DNA from: Verrucomicrobiia bacterium | GTDB taxonomy: Bacteria; Verrucomicrobiota; Verrucomicrobiia; Limisphaerales; DASXHY01 | DNA: 64,000 nt | Direction of reading: 5' to 3' | Assembly: GCA_035629175.1 (NCBI GenBank) | Contig: DASPIL010000107.1 | Location: 186,001 to 250,000, forward strand | Shown: in pieces, positions 28,837 to 41,927 of the stretch | Position numbering within the stretch: the first letter of the stretch is position 1 | Layout of the letters: the number at the start of each line of letters is the position of its first letter | Translations under genes and position numbers: made by a program | Notes under the pieces: model-generated | Database searches by the model: none | What the model was told of the DNA's origin: nothing | The model's input: the letters and a program-made list of their open reading frames with translations, nothing else

Positions 28837-29077
28837 GTAGGTTGAAGGGTTGGCAGCGTCAAGCCGTGCGCTCGACCCCGGATTCTGAACAAACATGCAG
28901 GTTTGATTTTCCAGGCGGGAGCACGAGGCGTCCGTAGAATTCCCGGGGCGCTGCCGCGTAGTACTCCTGATCAAACGCAGCTTGTTGGTCCAGACCGCGT
29001 TGCGATAGAAATGATCCGCCTCATTGTGAGCATCAGTCAGTCTGTTTTTTTGCCTGAAGCAGCTTGGAGGTTTGTCG
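28837..29077. other. Divergent intergenic region between the thiC leader and the giant repeat protein
   Basis: About 240 bp without a convincing gene. It must contain the thiC promoter (reading left) and the promoter of the 2,134-residue protein (reading right). A strong ribosome binding site, GGAGG at 29066-29070, stands 7 bases before ATG 29078. No clear -35/-10 pair could be picked by eye. Confidence 0.5.
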
Positions 29078-32000
29078 ATGAGCTTAACTATGACCACGCG
29101 TAAATATCTCTTCCTGGCGGTTGCTTTGTCCGTTGGTCAACAATCGAGTTTTGCTGCGGATGTCGTTTGGACGAATGCGGCGGGAGGTAATTGGAGTGCG
29201 GCAGCGAATTGGAACCCGAACCAGGTGCCCACTGGGGCTGATGCGGCGTGGATCACAAATTCCGGCAGCTACACGGTGACTGTATCCGCGAACGCCTCTG
29301 TCGACGCGTTGACATTGGGGTCTTCGCTATCAACCGGAACGCGCACGCTGCAAGTCGCTGGCGGAACCCTGAGCGTCACCAACGGAAGCTGCGCCAGCAA
29401 CGGATTGATTCTTATTTCAGGCGGAGCCCTTCAAGCCGCTGGAACGTTCAGCAGCCGGGGATCGGTTCATCAGACTGGAGGAACCTTGTGGTTGCTGTCG
29501 TCCGCCATGTTGAACACTTACAATTTCACGAACGGCGATCTTCGGGGCGGCCTCCTCACGGTGACGAATCTCACGTGGGCAGGCGGCAACATGTATGCGG
29601 ACGCCACTGGCGACAAGACTGTGATCCCGTCGGGCGGCGTGTTCAACCTCGTCAGCGGCGCAACCCGTTACCTCACTTACAATGCAACGACCAGCAACGG
29701 CCGCAGCATTGACAATTACGGAACCTGGAACTGGAGCGGTGATGCCGTCCTTTACGGTCTCCAGCCCGCCTGCGTGATCAACAATTTCGGGACGATGAAT
29801 CACGTGGGAACCGGCGATGCCTATTTCGCGTATTATCCTGGTTACGGTGGGCCGACATGGAACAATTACGGGACGTTTCTCAAGTCCGGCGGAACGAACT
29901 CGTTTTATTTTTACGGAGTGTATGCGAACAACCAGACAACGATGAGCAGCCAGGCAGGCAAGCTCTGGTTCTACGGCGCGGCCGTGACCAACAAAGGTTC
30001 GATCGCGGTACAGAACGGTTTGCTTCACGCGTACGGCGGGTGGGTGACCAACAGTGGCAGCGTCAGCCTGGCATCTGATGCGGGATTTCAAGTGGACAAT
30101 GGCGCATTGGTTACCCTTGGCGCCGTGTCCAGCATGACATCGCCGGGCGCGGATTCCATTCGTCTCATCAGCGGCACGCTCGCTGTGGAATCGACGAACG
30201 TCACGACTCCCAGCGTCCTGATTGCTGGTGGAACGCTATGGCACAGGACGAACAATTTCATCCCGACCATCAACCAATCCTCAGGCACGTGGCGGCTGAG
30301 CGTGCCTGTCGCGGTGCAGAATTACAACTTCACCAACGGCGAACTTCGCGGCGGTACTCTGACCGCGACGAACCTGAACTGGGCCGGCGGCAACATGAAT
30401 GCGGACGCAAACGGCGATCGAACGATTATTCCCTCTGGCGGCGTGTTAAATTTTATGGGTAACACAACGCGATATTTCAGTTACAACGCCCCAGCAAGCA
30501 ACGGCCGATCGCTGGATAATTACGGGACATGGAACTGGAGCGGGGACGCTGTGCTGTATGGCTTGCAGATGGGGTCGGCCGTAAACAATTTTGGCACCGT
30601 GAATCACACGGGTGCCGGCGACGCGTATTTCGCCTACTATCCCGGCTACGGCAGCCCAGTGTGGAACAATCACGGAACGTTCAACAAATCGGGCGGCTCG
30701 AATGTGTTTTTTTGGTATGGCGTCTATTTGAACAACTTCGGGGCGATTGAAGCCGGCACCGGTGCCTTGTCGCTCTATGGGTCCGCTGCGATCAACCAGG
30801 GTCCACTCGTCGCAAATGGCGGATTGTTGCGGATTTATGGCGGATCACTAACCAACGAAAGCGCGATCGCCATCTCGGCAGCGTCGCTGTTGTCCGTGGA
30901 AAACAGCGCCACCGTTGTGTTGAATGCGTCATCCGCGCTGACTGCTCCCGCTGCAAACAGCGTACGCCTCGTGAGCGGAGCCGTGCATATCGCGACGACA
31001 AATCTCGTCACACCCTCGCTGTGGCTGAACGGCGCCACGGTGTACCAGCGCACGAACATCGCGGTTTCAACGATCAACCAGTCGGGCGGCAGCCTTGAAC
31101 TGCGCGTCCCGGCCGTGCTGGCAAACTACAATTTTACCAACGGGGAGTTGCGAGGGCGTGATCTCACCGTCACCAACCTGAACTGGTACGCGGGCGACAT
31201 GAACAACGGGTCGCCATCCGATGGTCCACTCGCCCAGCCCGATCGCACGATCATTCCGGCTGGCGGCGTCGCGAACATTTTGGGAACCGCAGATCGCGGA
31301 TTCAGCTATTACAGTTCGAACAGGGGACGCGGGCTCGACAATCACGGAACGATCAACTGGGCCGCTGCAATTCAGTTGCGCGGCAACAACAACATGGCCG
31401 TGAACAATTACGGAAATGTGATTGTCACGGGCGATTCGCCCAATGTTCAGTTCGACTGGTACGGAAACGGGGCCGGACCCGTTTGGAACAACTTCGGAAC
31501 GATCACGCGTTCAAACGGATCTTCGACCTTCTATTTCGACTCGGCGTACTTGAACAATCACGGCGTCATCGACGCGCGGTCCGGAATCCTGTCGCTGCAT
31601 GCGTCCATTGTTACGAATCATTCGGGCGGAGCGATCCTGCTGGGAGCCGCAGTTCCGCTGGTCAACGAACAAGGGTCGGGAACCACCCTGAATCCCGGTT
31701 CGATCGTTTCCGGGGGTCCCCCGAATGCGCTTCGAATTCCGAGTGGCACGGTGTACCTGCGCTCCACCGACCTGCAAGTTCCCTCGCTGCTGATTTCGGG
31801 CGGTACACTGGTGCAGGATGCCAGCACGGTGCCCGCGGTGGTGAATCAATCCGCCGGCGTGTGGCGGCTGGATGTGCCAGCATCTGCCACGAGCTTCAAT
31901 CTCACGAACGGCGAGTTGCGCGGTGCAAACCTCACAGTGGACCATTTCAATTGGCTCGGAGGCGCATTGAATTCGGATGGACCCGGCAAGGACACGGTCA

Positions 32001-35000
32001 CTGTGAACCAGACTTTGAACATCGCTGGCAATACAGCCAAATCGATGAGTTATTGGGTCGCACCTGGCCGTTCGCTGATCAACCACGGCACCGGAACCTG
32101 GGGCGGCGTGGGCATCACAGGACAGGGTGGTGCGACGATTCGCAACAACGGCTCACTGGCCGTGACAGCGGACGTTGCATTAGTCTGGGGAGGGACAGGG
32201 CCTGCGACGGTGCTTCACAATATTGGAACCTTCACCAAATCTGGCGGCACTGGAATCGCGACATTCGGGAGCACGACGATCACCAACAGCGGCACGTTTG
32301 ATTTCAATGTGGGCAGTCTCTCCCTCGCCGGTCCGTTTGTTCAAACCGCCGGCTCCGGATTCCTCGGAACCAATTTCAGTTGCGGATCGCAGGTGCGCGT
32401 TGAATCCGGTGTTCTAACAGGTCGCGGAACAATTGCGGGATCCTTCTACAACAACGGCGTCGTGAATCCCGGCGCGTCTCCGGGTCTTATCACAGCCGCA
32501 AACTATACAAACACGATTGCGGCCGCGTTGAATGTCGAGCTTGCTGGCACATCGGTTCCCGGAACGAATTACGATCAGCTGCGACTGTCGGGAACCGCGA
32601 CGCTGCAGGGGACATTGAATGTGCGTCTCATCGAGGGCTTTACTCCGTCGCTCAGCAACACCTTCACCGTCATGACTTTCGGATCACGCCTCGGAATGTT
32701 TGACAGTATCACGCCGCCGCCCGGTGTGACATTCGAGGCGACTTACACCAGCACGAATCTGGTGCTGACGGTGGGTGCGCTGACGAATGTCCCGCTCCAG
32801 ATCACAAGTTTCCCGAGCAATCAGACAGTCTGGCAACCCGATCCCGTAACATTCGTCGTTGGAGTTTCGGGAACCACACCCATCAGCTTTCAGTGGCAGT
32901 TCAACAGCAACAATATTCCTGGTGCGACGAACGCGGTGTTCACGATTGCATCCACAACGCCGGCGAATTCCGGTGTTTACAATGTCATTGTCACCGACGC
33001 GACCCTTGCCACGACAAATGTGTCCGCGACGCTCAGCGTGATTCCCTTTGACGGCACCATTAACTGGACGAACACGCTGGGTGGCAATTGGTCCGTCGCC
33101 GCCAACTGGCTGCCGAATCGGGTTCCAGGCCCAACGAACACCGCGTCGATTTCTGCTGCAGGAACCTATTCTGTGACGATTGATGGGAACATTGCCGTCA
33201 GCAACCTGCTGGTGGGCTCTTATACGGGGACGCAAACAGTGCATCTTGCCGCGGGGCGGACGCTTTCGTTGGGCGGCGACTCGCGGTTTGCAGCGAACAC
33301 GGTGTTGAATCTCGATGGCTTGCTGCAAACGTCGGGCGGATCCAACTACCTCGGCGGTCTTGTAAACTGGTATACAGGCGCGCTTTCCGGTGCTGGCAGG
33401 ACCGTGGTTGGAACGAACGGACACCTGTATTTCATAGGGAGCCAGCAGCAGAAGCACATCGTCACGAATATCGTGGAGAATTACGGGGAGTTCACCACCT
33501 CGCGTGACGCGGGCATCGGGCCGGGGCAATTGCCGATGTTCAGCGGCGGAGCCCAGTTGACCAACCACATCAGCGGCGTGATCCACATGGGCGCGAACGG
33601 TTTGAACTACGCAGGATCGCAGTTGCCGCGGTCGTTCCTCGTGAATCATGGAACAATCAACACGGCAAGCTCATCGGTGTGGTCTCCAAGCACGATCGGG
33701 ATTGATTTCATCAATTACGGCCGGGTGCAAAACTACAGTTACGTCTACATTTTCCGTGGTGCGAACTACGGCGAATTCTGGAACTACAACGCCCTGGCCG
33801 AGTACAGCATCTTTGGCGATTCAACGGGTGAAGCGTTCAGCTTTGAACCGGGAACGCAACTGACTGGCGGACATGTGAACATCGCGTGCGCAGGGCCCGT
33901 GCAGTGGCGTGCGGCCAATACGGTTCATCACGGGAGACTTTATATTGCTCAAGCATCGGGAGGCGCGAAGTATCCGAACCCTGAATTCCGGGTGCTCGCG
34001 AATTACACAAACACATCGCAGGTGCATATCCTTCTCGGCGCGCTCTCGATTCTCGACCCGGCAATCATCACCGACCTGCGTTCTCTCAGCGACGGGTTTG
34101 TCAGCTTCTGGTCTTTTGGCATCACGAACGCAGGGACGATGTATGTCGACAACCTGAGTCACACGATTTACTCGATCGGCAATGGCGGCACCATGGTGAT
34201 CCGGACGAACGCGCACATTTCGAATAGTTCGATACTCGGCAGCGGCACGACGATCCTTGCGCCGGGCGCCACGGCAACTTTCCAGGCGATGGCGGTGGAC
34301 GCCCAACGCATTGAGAATTCTGGCACCGTTGCCGTCACGGGTGGCACCAGTTCCTTGACTGGGAACAGCTACTTCGAAAACAAGGCGGCTGCTCAGCTGT
34401 ATTTCAATGGTGGGGCAATTGGCGGCGGGCCGGCGTCAATTGCGAACTTTGGGACGATTAGCGGTTTTGGTGGCATCAGCGTGAGTTGCACGAACTTCAA
34501 CAGCGTGGTCGCCGATGACACGCTCGGGCGCAACCTCGGCCTGGGCCTGTTCGTTCAGCTCAGCGGCGCAACTGAAATCCTGCGGGGACAAGTTGGCGGC
34601 GCATTGCGGATTCTTGGCGGCACGCTGACAGGCACCAATGTCGTCAACGGCACTGTGGAGAATGCCGCCGCGTTTGCACCGGGACGTCCGTTTGGAAACC
34701 TCGCGATCACGGGCAACTTCACCAACCGGAGTGACGGGATCGAACTGCTGCCAATCGGTGGCACGAACCTGTATCCGACGGTGAATATCGGCGGAACCGC
34801 GCACCTTGCCGGAAAGCTGGTGCTGTCCTTTACCAATGGCTTTTATCCGATCATTGGGAACACCTTTACCGCAATGACCTACGTTGCGCGTTCGGGTGAG
34901 TTCGACGAAGTCGTCATGCCGGGTTACGACTTCGAGGTTCTTTACACCCCGACTGCGTTATTGCTGCGCGCGAGCAATGCGTTGCCGTCGATCACCTTCA

Positions 35001-35482
35001 GTGTCGCCGACGGTTCGCAGACGCAGCTCGTTTGCCGCCCCTTCTCGCTGCTCGCGAGCGGGAACGATCCTGACGGAACCGTCACAAACCTCAGCGTTCG
35101 GCTGAACGGCAGCACGTTTGCAACGGTGAACGGCGGGTCGCTGCAAAGTTCGGCAGAGTTTGATTTTCCCACCTCGCTTGAGTTTGTGGGAACTGTCATC
35201 GACAACAGGGGCGGAAGCCGGTCCATCACGCAGCAGGTGTCAGTTGTTACACCGCCGCCGCACGTGCTGTCGCTCGGAGGCGTGCGCACCAACACGTTCA
35301 AAATCTGCATGCAAGGCGAGCCAGGCCGCGATTACAGCGTGCTTGCCAACACCAACTTGCGCAGTACGAATTGGGTGATCATCGGACCCATGGAACGCAC
35401 CAACGGAATCTGGCGATACGTGGACACGCACTTCACCAATCACCAGCAACGTTATTACCGAGCGCGACAGATCCCGCAGTAG
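29078..35482 (+). CDS. Giant secreted beta-strand repeat protein with Ig-like domain
   Basis: A 2,134-residue exported protein; the ATG at 29078 follows GGAGG by 7 bases. The signal peptide (MTTRKYLFLAVALSVGQQ) ends near SSFAA. A start module, VVWTNAAGGNWSAAANWNPN, recurs as INWTNTLGGNWSVAANWLPN near residue 1330. Three long tandem units open with YNFTNGDLRGG or YNFTNGELRG, each followed by WNWSGDAVLYG, GDAYFAYYPGYG and similar blocks; a fourth is degenerate. Next come an autotransporter-like VNPGASPGLITAANYTNT block, an Ig-like domain (about residues 1250-1320), more beta-rich repeats, and a C-terminal module with EPGRDYSVLANTNL and a YYRARQ end. No beta-barrel or CTERM sorting signal is visible at the C-terminus, so attachment is unclear. 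A surface or adhesive role is inferred. Confidence 0.85.
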   Translation: MSLTMTTRKYLFLAVALSVGQQSSFAADVVWTNAAGGNWSAAANWNPNQVPTGADAAWITNSGSYTVTVSANASVDALTLGSSLSTGTRTLQVAGGTLSVTNGSCASNGLILISGGALQAAGTFSSRGSVHQTGGTLWLLSSAMLNTYNFTNGDLRGGLLTVTNLTWAGGNMYADATGDKTVIPSGGVFNLVSGATRYLTYNATTSNGRSIDNYGTWNWSGDAVLYGLQPACVINNFGTMNHVGTGDAYFAYYPGYGGPTWNNYGTFLKSGGTNSFYFYGVYANNQTTMSSQAGKLWFYGAAVTNKGSIAVQNGLLHAYGGWVTNSGSVSLASDAGFQVDNGALVTLGAVSSMTSPGADSIRLISGTLAVESTNVTTPSVLIAGGTLWHRTNNFIPTINQSSGTWRLSVPVAVQNYNFTNGELRGGTLTATNLNWAGGNMNADANGDRTIIPSGGVLNFMGNTTRYFSYNAPASNGRSLDNYGTWNWSGDAVLYGLQMGSAVNNFGTVNHTGAGDAYFAYYPGYGSPVWNNHGTFNKSGGSNVFFWYGVYLNNFGAIEAGTGALSLYGSAAINQGPLVANGGLLRIYGGSLTNESAIAISAASLLSVENSATVVLNASSALTAPAANSVRLVSGAVHIATTNLVTPSLWLNGATVYQRTNIAVSTINQSGGSLELRVPAVLANYNFTNGELRGRDLTVTNLNWYAGDMNNGSPSDGPLAQPDRTIIPAGGVANILGTADRGFSYYSSNRGRGLDNHGTINWAAAIQLRGNNNMAVNNYGNVIVTGDSPNVQFDWYGNGAGPVWNNFGTITRSNGSSTFYFDSAYLNNHGVIDARSGILSLHASIVTNHSGGAILLGAAVPLVNEQGSGTTLNPGSIVSGGPPNALRIPSGTVYLRSTDLQVPSLLISGGTLVQDASTVPAVVNQSAGVWRLDVPASATSFNLTNGELRGANLTVDHFNWLGGALNSDGPGKDTVTVNQTLNIAGNTAKSMSYWVAPGRSLINHGTGTWGGVGITGQGGATIRNNGSLAVTADVALVWGGTGPATVLHNIGTFTKSGGTGIATFGSTTITNSGTFDFNVGSLSLAGPFVQTAGSGFLGTNFSCGSQVRVESGVLTGRGTIAGSFYNNGVVNPGASPGLITAANYTNTIAAALNVELAGTSVPGTNYDQLRLSGTATLQGTLNVRLIEGFTPSLSNTFTVMTFGSRLGMFDSITPPPGVTFEATYTSTNLVLTVGALTNVPLQITSFPSNQTVWQPDPVTFVVGVSGTTPISFQWQFNSNNIPGATNAVFTIASTTPANSGVYNVIVTDATLATTNVSATLSVIPFDGTINWTNTLGGNWSVAANWLPNRVPGPTNTASISAAGTYSVTIDGNIAVSNLLVGSYTGTQTVHLAAGRTLSLGGDSRFAANTVLNLDGLLQTSGGSNYLGGLVNWYTGALSGAGRTVVGTNGHLYFIGSQQQKHIVTNIVENYGEFTTSRDAGIGPGQLPMFSGGAQLTNHISGVIHMGANGLNYAGSQLPRSFLVNHGTINTASSSVWSPSTIGIDFINYGRVQNYSYVYIFRGANYGEFWNYNALAEYSIFGDSTGEAFSFEPGTQLTGGHVNIACAGPVQWRAANTVHHGRLYIAQASGGAKYPNPEFRVLANYTNTSQVHILLGALSILDPAIITDLRSLSDGFVSFWSFGITNAGTMYVDNLSHTIYSIGNGGTMVIRTNAHISNSSILGSGTTILAPGATATFQAMAVDAQRIENSGTVAVTGGTSSLTGNSYFENKAAAQLYFNGGAIGGGPASIANFGTISGFGGISVSCTNFNSVVADDTLGRNLGLGLFVQLSGATEILRGQVGGALRILGGTLTGTNVVNGTVENAAAFAPGRPFGNLAITGNFTNRSDGIELLPIGGTNLYPTVNIGGTAHLAGKLVLSFTNGFYPIIGNTFTAMTYVARSGEFDEVVMPGYDFEVLYTPTALLLRASNALPSITFSVADGSQTQLVCRPFSLLASGNDPDGTVTNLSVRLNGSTFATVNGGSLQSSAEFDFPTSLEFVGTVIDNRGGSRSITQQVSVVTPPPHVLSLGGVRTNTFKICMQGEPGRDYSVLANTNLRSTNWVIIGPMERTNGIWRYVDTHFTNHQQRYYRARQIPQ
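29519..32340 (+). repeat. Long in-gene tandem repeats with 804-bp period
   Basis: Units start at 29519, 30323 and 31127 (TACAA...ACGG encoding YNFTNG), exactly 804 bp apart each time. A fourth, altered unit (FNLTNGELRGANL) starts at 31895, 768 bp further on, and fades out near 32.3 kb. Units 1 and 2 are the most alike at protein level (for example GRSIDNYGTWNWSGDAVLYG versus GRSLDNYGTWNWSGDAVLYG). Confidence 0.85.
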
Positions 35483-40461: not shown

Positions 40462-40662
40462 GCATCGAAAACCCAGGGGGGCTGTCGGCCCTTTTTACAT
40501 TTGTGTCTTCCCTCCTTTTTGAGCCGCCGCTGTTTGAAGCTTTTTTTTCAACGCAACCTCCTCGGTGAAAACAACCACCACTGATTGTCTCAATTTTGGC
40601 CAACGTCTTGGCTCAATCGCTGCTTAAGATATCTTGCCACAGATACAATCCGGGGTGAAAAC

Positions 40663-41232
40663 ATGATCACAAAGACGTTCGTTAGCAGACTTGGAGCAGC
40701 CGCTCTTCTCGCCGCATCTCTCACGGGGGCTTATGCCGTTCCTTCAGAGATTCAATTCGTAAACACGGGCAACGCTCCTGCGTTCAGTGGGGGGCCTCCA
40801 TATAACGTGGACCTTTCCGGGGTCAACATTACTGTCAGCCACACAACCGGAGCATTTAGCCCCATTCCCTTGGGCCATTCAGCCGATTGGACCACGGGTT
40901 TTTCCACAGGCGATAGCGGCTTCACTCTTTGGCAACTGATTTACAACGGAGTGACATTCAAGCTGGATGGCACATCCATTACCTTGGTGAACCCAGGTCC
41001 CGGCACGCTTTTTCTGGCCGGGGACGGGATCGTCCATATCAATGCACATAATGCCCCAGGCCAATGGAATTTGGTGATCGATACAACGGGCAACCGTGTA
41101 TCCACATTCGGAGCCGCCACCACGACTGACCTCCCGGAAAACGCCGGACGCGTTCCAGACGCGGGAATGACGTTCACGTTGCTCGCCGTTGGAATGTCGG
41201 GTCTGGTACTGATTCGGCGGCGGATTTCCTGA
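40663..41232 (+). CDS. VPDSG-type sorting-signal secreted protein
   Basis: A 189-residue exported protein from ATG 40663. The signal peptide MITKTFVSRLGAAALLAASL ends near GAYAV. The beta-rich body includes FVNTGNAPAFSGGPPYNVDL and LFLAGDGIVHINAHNAPGQW. The C-terminus is VPDAGMTFTLLAVGMSGLVL then IRRRIS: a V-P-D-x-G motif, a hydrophobic helix and a basic end, the tripartite signal of the VPDSG-CTERM class known from Verrucomicrobiota (here Ala replaces Ser). Such signals are handled by exosortase-like enzymes. It is paralogous to the next gene (GxGIxHI region). The upstream ATG at 40585 would add 26 residues. Confidence 0.82.
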   Translation: MITKTFVSRLGAAALLAASLTGAYAVPSEIQFVNTGNAPAFSGGPPYNVDLSGVNITVSHTTGAFSPIPLGHSADWTTGFSTGDSGFTLWQLIYNGVTFKLDGTSITLVNPGPGTLFLAGDGIVHINAHNAPGQWNLVIDTTGNRVSTFGAATTTDLPENAGRVPDAGMTFTLLAVGMSGLVLIRRRIS

Positions 41233-41298
41233 ATTGTGAACAACTACTCCTTGACCGGAGTAGGCACTCAGAAGTAAAAGCGAGCAACCCTCAATTCT

Positions 41299-41880
41299 AT
41301 GAAGAACCAGATCCTGAAATTTTGCGCGGTTGCGGTTGTTGGGTTCGGTGCCTTGATGCTGCCAGTTCAGGCAGCGACCTACATCAGTGGCGAAATCGCT
41401 TTCACTGGGGGAGCCACGTTAAACGGACCGATAGATACGGCGACGGCGTTCACCTCCATCTTCGGTCCCTTGGGGCCGGGAGCTGACGTTCCTGTTGTTG
41501 GCGGCGGGCCGACTGGCAACTATGCGGGAGTTCCTGGAGGCACTCCTGTCTCGTTTACCCCGTTCGCGTTCGACGCTCCAATTGGTTCTCCAACCCAGCT
41601 GTGGACCTTTTCGGTCGGGCCAACCACTTATAGCTTCGACATTACTTCAGTCACAATCGCACTTCAGGGCAGCGGGTTCCTGCATCTGACTGGCGAAGGC
41701 ATCGCACACATTACCGGGCAGCTTTCGACCCCGGCAACGTGGAGCATCACGGACGTAGGCTTTAACGGCCCAGTGTTCACATTCGGAAACATCGCTGTGG
41801 TTCCCGAGCCTTCCATCAACGCGCTCCTCGCTGGTTTCGGAGCTGTGTTCCTGGTGTTTCGCTACCGCAGCAAACAATAA
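41299..41880 (+). CDS. PEP-CTERM sorting-signal secreted protein
   Basis: A 193-residue exported protein. The signal peptide is MKNQILKFCAVAVVGFGALM, cleaved near VQAATY. The body is Gly- and Pro-rich with beta strands (PTQLWTFSVGPTTYSFDI, FLHLTGEGIAHITG). The C-terminus has VPEPSINALLAGFGAVFLVF then RYRSKQ: the PEP motif, membrane helix and basic cluster of the PEP-CTERM class. It shares the GxGIxHI strand with the preceding VPDSG-type protein and lies 66 bp downstream of it, so they look like duplicated paralogues whose sorting signals have diverged. A strong terminator follows. A surface or extracellular matrix role is inferred. Confidence 0.85.
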   Translation: MKNQILKFCAVAVVGFGALMLPVQAATYISGEIAFTGGATLNGPIDTATAFTSIFGPLGPGADVPVVGGGPTGNYAGVPGGTPVSFTPFAFDAPIGSPTQLWTFSVGPTTYSFDITSVTIALQGSGFLHLTGEGIAHITGQLSTPATWSITDVGFNGPVFTFGNIAVVPEPSINALLAGFGAVFLVFRYRSKQ

Positions 41881-41895
41881 TCAGCGGATTTCTCA

Positions 41896-41927
41896 AAAAC
41901 CCGGCGCTTACCCGCCGGGTTTTTTTT
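41896..41927 (+). terminator. Rho-independent terminator after the PEP-CTERM gene
   Basis: AAAACCCGGCG pairs with CGCCGGGTTTT around a short loop and is followed by a run of T. It lies 15 bp after the stop and before the convergent DUF2264 gene, so it may serve both. Confidence 0.92.

Follow-up and report, generated by a model that had tools for sequence, protein, structure and literature searches.

In Proteobacteria, Haft et al. (PMC1569441) described a 17-nt motif ending in TTTACA that precedes the sigma-54 site of PEP-CTERM genes, together with PrsK, PrsR and PrsT; the distance between box and promoter averages 63 bp (32-92). The motifs were found in Proteobacteria only, and none of PrsK, PrsR and PrsT was found in Verrucomicrobium spinosum. 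A wet-lab precedent for the circuit is pepA of Aquincola, which is RpoN-dependent and has a TGGCAC...CTGCTT promoter (PMC9850573). It is also documented that one protein family can bear different tails in different genomes, namely GlyGly-CTERM, LPXTG or PEP-CTERM (PMC3237569). A further system is made up of the exosortase class XrtC (TIGR04151) and the VPDSG-CTERM tail (TIGR03778/PF18205); the open-access literature that we searched holds no mention of VPDSG.

We describe a locus that resembles each of these systems. With the XrtC/VPDSG-CTERM system it shares tail type, exosortase class and their co-occurrence. With the proteobacterial PEP-CTERM/EpsH circuit it shares a 17-nt box ending in TTTACA above a -24/-12 promoter, which fits motif 1 of that work, as well as homologues of PrsK, PrsR and PrsT that score over cut-off. 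Unlike the proteobacterial circuit, the one seen here goes with VPDSG/XrtC genes and not with PEP-tailed genes, and its box-promoter distance is mostly 96-124 bp. As in the interchangeable-tail families, a single family carries different tails depending on the genome, but here both tails occur in adjacent members, within a genome encoding both sorting enzymes. The kind of system is known. In the literature searched, XrtC clusters were not found connected with PrsK/PrsR/PrsT and the box/sigma-54 promoter, and to that extent the wiring is new. We propose, with a probability of about 0.6, that the two adjacent genes, P0001 and P0002, form a small regulated operon that would deliver two family members through two exosortase routes.

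The window, the whole 64 kb stretch of DNA that was analysed, comes from a Limisphaerales genome (G000). The initial annotation had placed two secreted proteins side by side, and both ORFs were found there, on the same strand and 66 bp apart (Table 1). It had also taken them for paralogues, and their homology held. BLASTP matches P0001 to P0002 over their last 100 residues (5e-8), and the mature domain of P0001, with tail and signal peptide removed, reaches 41.8 bits against a profile of the family from which P0001 was left out; the best of 1000 shuffles reached 14.4. The strand common to both proteins (DGIVHI and EGIAHI) falls in a stretch conserved in the family. Identity between the two is ~30%, and their homology, judged from sequence, is beyond chance.

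Table 1. Features of the P0001-P0002 locus, in window coordinates.
Feature	Position	Strand	Evidence and remarks
PrsR-box-like element TGTCGGCCCTTTTTACA	40483..40499	+	12/12 specified bases of TGTCGG-N5-TTTACA
Sigma-54 type -24/-12 promoter TTGGCTCAATCGCTGCT	40608..40624	+	Consensus scan
P0001	40663..41232	+	ORF (189 aa, ATG), family profile, tail models; secreted family protein, VPDSG-type tail
P0001 signal peptide	40663..40737	+	Residues 1-25, by eye: hydrophobic core then AYA
P0001 VPDSG-type C-terminal sorting signal	41152..41229	+	Residues 164-189; PF18205/TIGR03778 matches
Hairpin CTACTCC-TTGACC-GGAGTAG	41244..41263	+	7 bp, no T run, in the 66-bp gap; weak (z = -1.6)
P0002	41299..41880	+	ORF (193 aa, ATG), family membership, tail models; secreted family protein, PEP-type tail
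P0002 signal peptide	41299..41373	+	Residues 1-25, by eye: hydrophobic core then VQA
P0002 PEP-type C-terminal sorting signal	41800..41877	+	Residues 168-193; weak PF07589 match, own-genome PEP model
Strong intrinsic terminator AAAAACCCGGCG-CTTACC-CGCCGGGTTTTT then TTT	41895..41927	+	-24.1 kcal/mol for a 56-nt stretch, z = -3.65

Searching the genome contigs with P0002 alone gave no match, and searching them with a four-sequence alignment found two relatives. Altogether the family counts 51 members in 30 of the 320 Limisphaerales genomes searched. The mature domain, searched for 14 members against Pfam, NCBIfam and PDB, gave no significant match; it represents an undescribed secreted family. 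Structures predicted for P0001 and P0002 from a shallow alignment reached pLDDT values of 42 and 51, and a fold search of the PDB returned no significant match, so that no fold is assigned to either protein.

The two proteins end in RVPDAGMTFTLLAVGMSGLVLIRRRIS (P0001) and VPEPSINALLAGFGAVFLVFRYRSKQ (P0002), which the initial annotation read as two different sorting signals. We examined this with tail models built from tails of the same genome, P0001 and P0002 being held out. P0001 scored 37.0 bits on the VPDSG model vs 20.7 on the PEP model, and P0002 scored 24.3 bits on the PEP model vs 1.5 on the VPDSG model, bearing the reading out. On general models the tail of P0001 is borderline in the protein scan (PF18205 23.6 bits, cut-off 25; TIGR03778 21.7, cut-off 22) and lies above the VPDSG-CTERM cut-off in the genome scan (27.4 bits), and the protein has the parts of a VPDSG-CTERM protein: VPDSG-like motif, helix, basic cluster and, by eye, signal peptide. 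P0002 shows by eye a PEP motif, helix, basic cluster and signal peptide, with a PF07589 score below threshold (13.1 bits, cut-off 20.7). The two make up the closest VPDSG/PEP pair in the genome, unique at that spacing. The question of whether signals differ among relatives could also be answered: tails vary within the family, being mostly VPDSG, with PEP tails in P0002, G010, G043 and G275-277, and a few others.

Several C-termini fall outside this pattern. A family member of G137 (L066 / L097), a genome that has XrtC, ends in a LETG-type C-terminus (VLETGATSWLLLLALGGLAGMRLSLTKQT), and in G219 (L099) the family domain starts a much longer protein with no VPDSG or PEP tail in the stretch read. 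In a second G010 paralogue (L181:7026-7736, G010 C52), a ~60-aa C-terminal module, Y.V..STNL..TNW...FYRV, replaces the PEP/VPDSG tail; no family model matches this protein. The same module ends the window's 2136-aa repeat protein (29072-35482; BLASTP 7e-6). The C-terminal module of the second copy in the G010 C174 pair is broken by a TGA codon (L076 1960-1970).

The genome encodes two clear exosortases of two classes; the objection that it might have only one class therefore falls away. Both belong to the exosortase superfamily (PF09721 155.8 and 120.7 bits, TIGR04178 over cut-off) and show by eye CSGIRS, NxxR and His. The enzyme at C31:43742-44566 lies beside VPDSG genes; the genome has 11 VPDSG proteins over cut-off, four of them on C31 at 31-39 kb, less than 13 kb from the exosortase. 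Its best NCBIfam match is XrtC, yet its 242 bits on TIGR04151 stay under the cut-off of 300. Across 40 genomes TIGR04151 scores are bimodal, at least 196 or at most 63 bits, and since the enzyme belongs to the upper mode we term it XrtC-class and not XrtC proper. The second, at C48:44485-45183, has XrtA as its best NCBIfam match and adjoins an EpsI-like protein and an EPS glycosylphosphotransferase; match and neighbourhood make it an EpsH/XrtA-like enzyme of an exopolysaccharide locus.

Across the 40 genomes, which are not phylogenetically independent, the VPDSG tail tracks XrtC: it is found in 23/23 genomes that have XrtC, against 5/17 that do not (p=1e-6). With completeness of 90% or more and contamination of 5% or less required, the figures are 16/16 vs 1/12. 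Four of the five genomes with VPDSG tails and no detected XrtC are <90% complete or >5% contaminated, and the fifth (G043) is listed at 90%. Within the family, XrtC is present in 18 of the 21 genomes with a VPDSG-tailed member and in none of the five with a PEP-tailed one, G000 being left out as it has both tails. In several genomes a VPDSG-tailed family gene lies ~15 kb or less from xrtC, and near xrtC, again in several genomes, are genes for a TIGR03016-like outer membrane protein, a PrsT-like protein, PrsK and PrsR (NCBIfam check of PrsT, PrsK and PrsR in G066, and of PrsT also in G000). At the xrtC locus of G238 (L172:8612-10585), the gene that comes after a VPDSG family gene has a PEP tail and is of an unrelated NHL-repeat type, which makes this another mixed-tail neighbourhood. 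We considered whether the two tails might be functionally equal, with either exosortase, or XrtC alone, processing both and the motif difference reflecting drift. P0001 and P0002 do have the helix and basic cluster in common, and the 20.7 bits of the P0001 tail on the own-genome PEP model agree with this explanation. We regard it as unlikely, as all 23 XrtC genomes have VPDSG tails while 12 of the 17 without XrtC have none despite one to five other exosortases in each, and as the VPDSG and PEP gene sets differ in promoter type.

That difference concerns a regulatory layer that the initial annotation lacked, having missed the box and the sigma-54 promoter. Sigma-54 sites first stood out in G000, above background before VPDSG genes and at background before PEP genes, and were then also seen upstream of family genes across genomes. 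Counting k-mers upstream of these sites yielded GTCGG and TTTACA, refined to the 17-nt consensus TGTCGG-N5-TTTACA. The box of P0001, which was part of the gene set used for refinement, matches at 12/12, as no other site on either strand of the window does; the sigma-54 site follows ~109 bp after it, 54 nt before the ATG as counted from TGG. Counted across genomes, which again are not phylogenetically independent, a box of at least 10/12 lies upstream of 27/41 VPDSG genes vs 0/39 PEP genes, a sigma-54 score of at least 18 upstream of 25/41 vs 2/39, and both at 30-160 bp spacing upstream of 18/41 vs 0/39. In the stretches of G000 that were scanned, the pair (96-119 bp) precedes 6/11 VPDSG genes, P0001 included; shuffled windows contain 0.15 pairs per 64 kb. 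Two weaker pairs were also seen: one, with a 10/12 box and a gap of 64 bp, stands at some distance before a PEP-tailed G000 gene (L029), and the other, with a sigma-54 score of 17, is in the window on its minus strand. PrsR of G000 is encoded on C40, ~1 kb from a VPDSG gene (615 bits, cut-off 502.6). PrsR scores over cut-off in 21/30 family genomes, where it co-occurs with XrtC (19/2/2/7, p=5e-4). Box, sigma-54 promoter and a prsR in the genome together make P0001, on sequence grounds, a candidate PrsR-regulated, sigma-54 dependent gene, to whose box PrsR would bind.

Upstream of P0002 we found no sigma-54 site, no box and no sigma-70-like site. Downstream of it lies the strong terminator, which a simple pattern scan of the + strand did not list. 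P0002 probably rides on the P0001 promoter, one transcript being the simplest reading. The hairpin in the gap is not a typical terminator and might reduce read-through into P0002. PEP-tailed relatives in G010 have neither box nor sigma-54 promoter, and for this reason P0002 may have a promoter of its own that we did not recognise. If so, its proximity to P0001 would be incidental, and its weak PEP tail either decaying or a mere membrane anchor. The gap hairpin, the tail score below cut-off and the PEP-tailed members elsewhere that have neither box nor sigma-54 promoter suit this account; the intact ORF, the retention of a PEP tail by relatives in G010 and G043 and the lack of any sigma-70-like site found between the genes do not, and we hold it to be improbable.

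The initial annotation went further and suggested that the sorting fate of the two proteins diverged after duplication. The tree does not support this as worded: P0002 groups with PEP-tailed proteins of G010 (support 100), while P0001 sits on a long branch with no supported placement and no close relative. Between the window and the G010 tandem pairs there is no synteny besides the genes themselves, the only other matches being weak ones of the long repeat protein. Adjacency, shared strand and shared family would be explained if the pair arose here by recent tandem duplication and one copy then acquired the other tail, and a sister pair of P0001 and P0002, absent from the tree, was not rejected (AU p=0.21). 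Set against this, the identity of only ~30%, the isolation of P0001 and the fully supported G010 grouping of P0002 leave a recent event with little credence. With P0001 unplaced, and with neither the sister pair nor a single PEP clade (AU p=0.39) rejected, duplication followed by divergence is possible as an old event, and a recent local one lacks support. Since the proteins closest to P0002 come from another genome and are PEP-tailed too, its PEP tail is probably older than this locus. The AU test rejects a VPDSG-only clade (p=0.002), a result to which the family's other tails contribute; with monophyly of the PEP tails not rejected, more than one number of tail switches fits the tree.

Under the small-operon reading that we prefer, a PrsR-type enhancer-binding regulator would govern transcription from the sigma-54 promoter, as at many VPDSG-tailed genes of the order, and the transcript would read through into P0002 and end at the terminator behind it. 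Both proteins would cross the inner membrane by their signal peptides and be retained there by the helix and basic cluster at their C-termini. P0001 would then be processed at its VPDSG motif by the XrtC-class exosortase on C31, and P0002 at PEP by the EpsH/XrtA-like exosortase on C48; by this separate processing, related domains would be delivered together via two sorting routes. More broadly, and at slightly under even odds, we suggest that the PrsK-PrsR/sigma-54 circuit of Limisphaerales regulates XrtC/VPDSG genes instead of the PEP-CTERM branch, with the operon in the window sending one related domain through both exosortase routes at the same time.

The specificity of exosortases is known largely from co-occurrence, and a family in which the tail goes with the exosortases of the genome, together with P0001 and P0002 as neighbours bearing both tails, offers matched substrates for a direct test. 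The difference in box and promoter provides a way to predict co-regulated surface proteins in these uncultured bacteria. Furthermore, if regulated by one promoter, the pair would be a natural test of how bacteria choose the destination of a surface protein.
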